A stretch of DNA of 64,000 nucleotides from Verrucomicrobiales bacterium (GTDB taxonomy: Bacteria > Verrucomicrobiota > Verrucomicrobiia > Verrucomicrobiales > DEV007), in contig JARGPH010000013.1 in the NCBI GenBank assembly GCA_029213065.1, positions 1-64,000 of the forward strand, read 5' to 3'. Below the pieces are notes generated by a model that saw nothing but the letters and a program-made list of their open reading frames with translations, ran no database searches and was not told the origin of the DNA. Shown here in pieces: positions 43,986-45,065 of the stretch; positions within the stretch are counted from its first letter, which is position 1; the number at the start of each line of letters is the position of its first letter. The translations under genes were made by a program, and so were the position numbers.

Positions 43986-45065
43986 CTATCTTTTCCCTTT
44001 TCCTTTGCCCTTGCCCTTGCCCCTGCGTGCGTCGATCTCACCGTCGCCGTCGTGGTCTTCTCCGAAGGGCATCACCGTCTCAAAAAAGATGTTCTCTCTG
44101 CGCCCCTCAGCGACGTGTTCGGAGTAGACTTTTCGCTCTTCGGTGGCGGCAAACGACTTGTTGGCGAGAAGGAGGGTCGCTTTGATATCGGCCTCTCTCG
44201 CCGTGATCGGAAGTTGCGCGAGGACTTCGCCTTTCTCGCCGAAGGTATCAGCCTGAATCACGATGATGCCCGATCTGCTTTTCAATTTCGTGAGCGCGGC
44301 GGCCCACTGGCTGTCTTCCTCCGGATCGCCAAAATCGAGGTGAAAACGTCCTGTCACTTCGTCATCGGCGAAGACCGGCCGGAGATTTCTTCGTGCGGAA
44401 GACTGCTCTCTTTCGCCTGCCGCGATAAAGACGAGGAGGCGCTGGTCGCCTGAAGCCACATTCAGCGCCTGTCGGAAGCTGTGAAAATCCTGAAGAAGCA
44501 TCTCATCGTCATTGCCGCGGGGGCGGTAGCTCGAGGCGAGGCCCTTCATTTCAGCGATGACTTCTTCGTTGGTTCCTTTCGTCGCTCCGGGGCCGCGACC
44601 TTCTGCCCCGAGAACCGAAGCGGGGGATCGACTCGCCCGGGTCAGTTGCTCTTCTCCTTTGGGATCGAGAATACAGAACGCGGTGTTCTCCATTCTTCCG
44701 TTGAGGAACTGACGGATTAAATCCTGATGCTCTTTGCTTTCGTAGGTTTCAAGTCTAACACAAACAAAATCACGGGAGGCGGCAACAAATTCTTTGGTCG
44801 AGAACAAACTGTTCTGCGTTTGGGTGTAACCGGGTCAGAACACTCCGGGGATATTCGAGCAGGTCGCGGCCGCAGCCATGAAGAAAATGGGTCTGTTAGA
44901 GCGGATCGCCTCCGCTCTCGCCGTATCCCAGGTCGTGTACCACATCACCCCCGGATCGCCGACCGGTTGTGTCGAAGCTCCGATGTCGGTGGGGCTTGCG
45001 CCCTGAGATGAACCGGTAACAGGAAAGAGGGCAAGAAGAGCAAGGAGGAGAATCGTAAGCTTCAT
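43986..45065 (-). CDS. Thioredoxin-like exported protein with an in-frame UGA (candidate selenoprotein)
   Basis: One frame of 360 codons runs from the ATG at 45065 to the stop at 43986, broken only by TGA at 44835-44837 (codon 77). The N terminus is a signal peptide (LTILLLALLALFPVTGSSQG). A thioredoxin-like strand RPIFFMAAAATC (Cys69) is followed by SNIPGVF, UGA, PGYTQTQNSLFSTKEFV and FVCVRLETYES. The C terminus has an EF-hand-like DHDGDGEID and a (KG)n tail. The 282 codons after UGA look intact. A hairpin, AGAACA-GTT-TGTTCT, starts 19 nt after the UGA, with a G at the loop start, consistent with bacterial SECIS geometry. Alternatives are a recent TGG/CGA-to-TGA nonsense mutation or sequencing error. 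A GGGAGG site precedes the start by 11 nt. Confidence 0.6.
44796..44816 (-). promoter_or_regulatory. SECIS-like hairpin downstream of UGA codon 77
   Basis: On the minus strand CAGAACAGTTTGTTCTCGA begins exactly 18 nt after the in-frame TGA (44835-44837). AGAACA/TGTTCT forms a 6-bp stem with loop GTT. The same sequence, one base different in the stem/loop, lies at the same distance from the TGA in the next gene (45574-45594). Confidence 0.45.

Follow-up and report, generated by a model that had tools for sequence, protein, structure and literature searches.

The window analysed here, a stretch of 64,000 nucleotides from a Verrucomicrobiales bacterium, carries on its minus strand a reading frame of 359 codons with only one in-frame UGA, at codon 77 (Table 1). 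An earlier note on this DNA had described such a single frame with a lone TGA; the frame and its limits were confirmed, and the strand, which the note left unstated, is the minus strand, with the gene running from 45065 to 43986. In 10 pairs of relatives, dN/dS was well below 1 both before and after the UGA, as exemplified by the comparison of the window with relative L010 (0.147/1.287 before and 0.123/1.273 after). The gene with this apparent stop-codon break is very probably intact. UGA also serves as an ordinary stop codon in its surroundings, where TGA ends 4 of 10 neighbouring genes checked.

Table 1. Position and basis of the features assigned to the UGA-containing gene (positions within the window).
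Feature	Position	Strand	Basis
Putative selenoprotein gene	43986..45065	minus	ATG at 45065, 359 codons and TAG; dN/dS
Probable signal peptide, residues 1 to about 20	45006..45065	minus	hydrophobic N-terminus after MK, by eye
Thioredoxin-like domain 1, residues about 36–183, holds Sec77	44517..44960	minus	3f9u_B match
Codon of Cys69, candidate resolving cysteine, C-x7-U	44859..44861	minus	invariance; putative role
In-frame UGA, codon 77, probably read as selenocysteine	44835..44837	minus	UGA in 78/78 gene-bearing genomes
Bacterial SECIS-like hairpin	44799..44818	minus	conservation and covariation; weak fold alone
Hairpin core stem	44815–44810 with 44806–44801	minus	6 bp
Hairpin apical loop GUU	44809–44807	minus	3 nt
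Thioredoxin-like domain 2, residues about 189–305, no CxxC	44151..44501	minus	9nce match
C-terminal DHDGDGEID acidic motif and basic Gly/Lys-rich tail	43989..44060	minus	alignment
Stop TAG	43988–43986	minus	ends the 359-codon frame

The predicted product would be a protein with two tandem thioredoxin-like domains. An AlphaFold2 model, built from a 33-sequence alignment with Sec given as Cys, contains two thioredoxin folds (pLDDT 85.2, pTM 0.84), with pLDDT values of about 78–83 around Cys69 and Sec77 and below 50 at residues 1–4 and 6–21. In VIA-align comparisons, domain 1 of the model matched 3f9u_B (Z 10.0, rmsd 2.9, 122 aligned), and domain 2 (model residues 191–302) matched 9nce (Z 10.2, rmsd 2.4, 101 aligned). 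The description of the protein as thioredoxin-like in the earlier note is thus borne out by the predicted structure and falls short at the level of sequence models, as Thioredoxin_7 (PF13899) scored 16.6–20.5 bits in four members (16.6 in the window protein), under its gathering cut-off of 27. The putative active site has the motif GVFUPGY or GVWUPGK, with close variants. P78, G79, and Y80 are invariant in 33/33 aligned sequences, with Lys at position 80 in a divergent clade, and Cys69, eight residues before Sec77, is likewise found in 33/33 and occupies the same place in each of 78 genomes. The C-terminal DHDGDGEID motif might, at a guess from its sequence, bind Ca2+. In some relatives, the thioredoxin domain is preceded by an EF-hand-like extension; the model match was run on one of them, L033, whose N-terminal extension matched EF-hand_5 with an E-value of 2.1e-5 and 24.2 bits against 25.9. 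The window protein has the DGDGEID motif and Gly/Lys tail at its C-terminus instead.

Sequence searches identified the gene in 33 of 74 genomes of the same GTDB family (E ≤ 1e-3) and in 72 of 386 sampled genomes of the order (E ≤ 1e-15); reading the codon in all of the latter gave TGA in 72/72. A search of the class gave matches in 15 of 384 genomes (E ≤ 1e-3), which added six genomes from two other family-level groups, all six with TGA. The phylum search matched 3 of 387 genomes (E ≤ 1e-8), all three inside this order. In total, codon 77 is UGA in 78 of 78 gene-bearing genomes (72 from the order and 6 from the class). No form with Cys, Trp, or Arg at this codon was found among the 74 family, 386 order, 387 phylum, and 384 class genomes at the same thresholds, where the order, class, and phylum sets are overlapping samples of larger groups and few candidates were scored per genome. 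The earlier note had named Trp or Arg at position 77 of the homologues as the result that would speak against selenocysteine, and neither occurs in any of the 78. As Cys homologues were not found either, the family looks Sec-only among the genomes searched. The pattern used to read the codon required a Cys eight residues before it and missed L104, L113, and L115; read separately, all three have the Cys and the UGA. A recheck of the 78 genomes without this requirement found TGA together with Cys at −8 in 77; the remaining genome, G355, has unknown bases beside the site and gave no match, and an earlier pass had read TGA and Cys there. One genome, G052, gave an additional, unrelated chance match of the pattern. 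In a class genome (G922), the locus L132 holds a tandem pair of family copies, and neither lacks the UGA or the hairpin.

All components searched for in selenocysteine insertion, proposed in the earlier note as a check, are present on one contig (C52) of the same assembly. These are SelA (501 bits, cut-off 267.9), SelB (291.8 bits, cut-off 242.25), SelD (379.9 bits), and a tRNA-Sec (60.6 bits, gathering score 47) that was also called by ARAGORN as tRNA-SeC with anticodon TCA. Judged from this gene content, the genome can make selenoproteins. The selD gene itself contains one UGA, in a U-A-S-K context, and lies with selA and selB within about 10 kb (L055 and L048), with the tRNA-Sec about 27 kb off.

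The gene and the machinery also occur together across the order, where SelA was counted in the 386 sampled genomes. A SelA match (E ≤ 1e-40) is present in 69 of 72 gene-bearing genomes (in 68, it exceeds the curated cut-off) and in 48 of 314 genomes lacking the gene; 3 genomes have the gene only and 266 have neither (Fisher p 2.5e-40, uncorrected for relatedness, so that independence is overstated). In G035, the SelA match is a fragment. The three gene-bearing genomes without a SelA match are incomplete assemblies, namely G046 (59% complete, with SelB), G047 (54%), and G354 (83%). Within the family, 31 of the 33 gene-bearing genomes have SelA, 25 have SelB over the cut-off (missing in 8), and 22 have a tRNA-Sec of at least 55 bits (missing in 11), with at least one Sec marker present in 32/33. 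For SelB, rows over the cut-off alone were counted, as the model (TIGR00475) also matches other elongation factors. In G073, G068, G059, and other genomes without SelA, the tRNA-Sec model gave matches of 82–85 nt scoring about 47–50 bits. These are probably other tRNAs, which makes the gathering score of 47 alone unsafe here, and tRNA-Sec was counted from 55 bits up.

Downstream of the UGA lies the hairpin AGAACA-GUU-UGUUCU (44815–44801), whose presence in the earlier note was confirmed, with a distance of 25 nt from the UGA to the loop G. The bacterial SECIS model, as set out in PMC13188914, has a loop of 3–9 nt, an upper stem of 4–16 bp, a G in the first two loop positions 16–37 nt from the UGA, and an MFE of −7.5 kcal/mol or lower. 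The GUU loop, 6-bp stem, loop G, and 25-nt spacing agree with this geometry. In energy, the hairpin is weak: the window copy reaches −5.9 kcal/mol when folded alone, and among 77 distinct sequences 12 attain −7.5 kcal/mol or lower. A fold of the 60 nt from the UGA in the window, which the earlier note had suggested, gave −9.3 kcal/mol with other pairs included, and single-sequence MFE folds contain the hairpin in some stretches and sequences and lack it in others. An Rfam search at four loci (E up to 0.5) returned tRNA-Sec and two snoRNA-family matches under their gathering scores, and no match at the hairpin.

The case for the hairpin is carried by comparison and not by the single fold. The apical loop G lies 25 nt after the UGA in every sequence read; it is present in 70/70 distinct sequences, followed by U in 69. 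With positions counted from the U of the UGA, pairs 24–36, 25–35, and 27–33 are formed in 70/70, pair 26–34 in 63, pair 28–32 in 55, and pair 23–37 in 39, and the lower stem varies between clades. One clade has UAC/UAC in place of AAC/UUC, with two amino acids changed and the pair kept. In the divergent clade, most members of which encode UPGKxxMDxSFL, the stem differs and its position is exactly the same, as in L115 with GGACAGGA-GUU-UCCUGUCC.

For the assessment of covariation, 29 sequences were picked for diversity from the 77 distinct hairpins. Paired cells amounted to 81.0% versus 63.0% in shuffles, cells with two-sided changes to 32 versus 11.3, and the covariation score to 0.426 versus 0.157; none of 500 shuffles equalled any of the three values, in counts that ignore the kinship of the relatives and so overstate independence. 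All slid registers were lower on these three measures. The number of pairs with two-sided change and the number of pair types showed no excess over shuffles in the same 29 sequences (118 and 246 of 500 as high). A larger set of 67 sequences, from which the divergent clade was absent, gave a covariation score of 0.077 versus 0.044 in shuffles; the register slid by −1 scored higher (0.098), but with 46.5% paired cells versus 76.9%.

The coding sequence points in the same direction. The 29 peptides have on average 5.07 of 6 pairs, against a mean of 3.60 and a maximum of 4.17 in 2,000 synonymous recodings, and the loop G occurs in 29/29, against a mean of 15.9. For the window copy alone, 6.8% of 20,000 recodings of the peptide with family codon usage contained all six pairs together with the loop G, and given the peptide this copy could be a product of chance. 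In the 33-sequence alignment, synonymous diversity at codons 82–88 falls to 0.12 of the expected value; none of the 205 windows of the alignment lies lower, and the mean elsewhere is 0.91. Judged by comparison across relatives, the hairpin appears to be far more than chance; it is conserved with compensatory changes, and as evidence it is insufficient when seen alone.

On these grounds we estimate a probability of roughly 0.93 that UGA 77 is read as selenocysteine. The proposal of the earlier note to this effect is supported by the sel genes, the 78/78 UGA codons, and the compensatory changes in the hairpin. Our verdict, from sequence comparison and the predicted model, is that the gene appears to encode a secreted selenoprotein with two thioredoxin domains that forms a new family.

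The closest candidates for a known family are the VPGUxxT proteins, types 1 and 2 (NF041382 and NF041383; OS_HP5 in Table 1 of PMC13188914), with which the new proteins have a thioredoxin-like domain in common. The selenoprotein could then be a divergent branch of this family instead of a family of its own, which we consider unlikely, if the most serious of the alternatives. VPGUxxT is the best-represented NCBIfam match, with 7/33 members at E up to 0.01, and a profile alignment to ten VPGUxxT-like sequences, which live in the same GTDB family, gave an E-value of 8.8e-5 (probability 59.7) and placed Sec77 on their Sec/Cys, the first Cys of a CxxC; U was written as C in both profiles, a substitution that favours this match. 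Independent support for the placement comes from the following [VL][LF]S motif, which is equally spaced in both groups. The placement also mostly answers a doubt of the earlier note, that the UGA lies off the CxxC position. Scores are far from the cut-offs of the family models, however, with 13.3–19.8 bits versus 350 for NF041382 in three of 4 proteins scanned and 14.6 versus 275 for NF041383 in one. The site also differs: the VPGU motif is absent and replaced by C-x7-U-P-G-[YK]. The local VPGUxxT-like relatives have U or C followed by xGC, whereas the new family has PGY or PGK, with Tyr, or Lys in the divergent clade, in place of the second CxxC cysteine, and a Cys eight residues upstream. 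Finally, VPGUxxT-like proteins of the same GTDB family occur with U or C, and the new family was seen with U only, in all 78 genomes.

These VPGUxxT-like proteins are found in 13 of 74 genomes of the GTDB family (L058–L067; TGA is present in 8 rows and absent from 5). None of their loci reaches the NF041382 cut-off, those read carry VPG[UC]xGC, and a VPG-x-xx-T pattern had no match in 12 loci. They may represent a further subfamily with Sec/Cys exchange.

Other known proteins share individual features. Trx7/PDZ (seleno)protein (NF041199, cut-off 300) gave a weak match in 2/33 members at E up to 0.01, and two of the four proteins scanned scored 11.5 and 10.7 bits. It is listed with a thioredoxin_7 domain in PMC9312934 and with a CxxU motif in Table 1 of PMC13188914, unlike the C-x7-U found here, and the new family proteins scanned had no PDZ domain match. 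Sec-containing thioredoxin (UxxC; PF00085) likewise carries Sec where the first cysteine of a thioredoxin fold would be, whereas the new family has no second Cys after Sec, two copies of the fold, and a probable signal peptide. Tandem thioredoxin domains are also present in PDI, ERp44, and calsequestrin-type proteins, the top Foldseek matches of the model, with low whole-chain TM-scores (query-normalised 0.19–0.27 among the matches listed). When the family profile was run against PDB sequences, no meaningful match emerged (best E 0.38). The best NCBIfam E-value among all 33 members, 0.00025, belongs to CT795_fam, which was matched by 1/33 (14.4 bits versus 72 in one member) and rejected as chance or shared fold, as was seleno_TsoB (1/33, E 0.0063). 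Wherever members were scanned against Pfam or NCBIfam with cut-offs, all scores stayed below them. The motif and architecture are absent from the available parts of the selenoprotein tables of PMC13188914 and PMC9312934, a comparison that leaves uncatalogued proteins such as GOS_A outside, and likewise from the available parts of PMC12013277, PMC2398784, and PMC4807772. Since no model exceeds its cut-off and no matching motif appears in these parts of the published tables, we regard the group as a putative new family of selenoproteins, as a variant within the thioredoxin-like type.

Genes with conserved signals for read-through are known, and the UGA might be read through in a regulatory, selenium-free manner as another amino acid, such as Trp or one from a near-cognate tRNA. 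This fits the isolated hairpin being weaker than the published SECIS energy limit and is nonetheless highly improbable, given that UGA is a normal stop here, that the gene accompanies SelA in nearly all genomes (69/72), that loop size, loop G, and spacing fit the SECIS model of PMC13188914, and that codon 77 aligns with the Sec/Cys of the VPGUxxT-like relatives. Least probable of all is that the UGA genuinely ends translation or stems from a sequencing error, leaving a pseudogene or a 76-residue secreted peptide and a second gene from the internal TTG at 44807: TGG or CGA is one step from TGA and a TTG-started frame does exist, but the identical UGA in 78 genomes and the dN/dS far below 1 on both sides reject pseudogene and sequencing error, and the codons between UGA and TTG encode the conserved P78, G79, and Y80 (33/33; Lys80 in the divergent clade). 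An alternative genetic code was rejected because TGA is a normal stop in 4/10 neighbouring genes.

If UGA 77 is read as selenocysteine, SelB carrying Sec-tRNA would bind the hairpin through its GUU loop 25 nt downstream, and the ribosome would insert selenocysteine at this codon. Sec77 would then take the position of the nucleophilic cysteine, the first one in a thioredoxin CxxC, with the second cysteine replaced in UPGY or UPGK. Most likely, it would attack a disulfide, a peroxide, or another oxidised substrate outside the cytoplasm, and the invariant Cys69 would resolve the product through a Cys69–Sec77 selenenylsulfide. Fold and motif suggest that the protein is likely an extracytoplasmic thiol, disulfide, or peroxide oxidoreductase with a Cys69–Sec77 couple; for the chemistry of this couple itself, we see about even chances. 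Similarly balanced, in our view, is the reading that this is an obligate selenoenzyme family, in which a C-x7-U site has lost the second CxxC cysteine and Sec may not be replaceable by Cys. The same reading would explain why the gene occurs almost only alongside the Sec machinery, being lost when Sec use is lost.

The family would add a strongly supported member to the catalogue of prokaryotic selenoproteins, which comprises 119 families and subfamilies according to PMC13188914, and its C-x7-U arrangement is unlike the UxxC and CxxU motifs common in that catalogue. Annotation can easily mistake such UGA-bearing genes for truncated ones. With no Cys form found, the family lends itself to asking why certain enzymes depend on selenium, through what fails once Sec77 becomes Cys. 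Furthermore, the variants of the hairpin, which has stayed in place despite changed bases and residues, form a natural collection from which SECIS rules in these bacteria could be learned, and some of them are weaker than the energy limit in the published model.

The flanks of relatives, mostly about 1.5 kb on each side, were examined in a shallow search for six proteins encoded near the gene in the window, and no operon or redox partner was found within them. The sole clear recurrence among the six is a sulfatase, in the closest relative (L010/L039), with weak sulfatase-family matches in L017, L018, and L028 and in copies of the first two. Finally, the genome G188, which has SelA, gave a weak partial match (E 1.5e-4) to a different thioredoxin-like stretch with a TGA (L138:968-1156). 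This short thioredoxin_7-like stretch carries NPCGETU (C-x3-U) and is possibly another undescribed selenoprotein.
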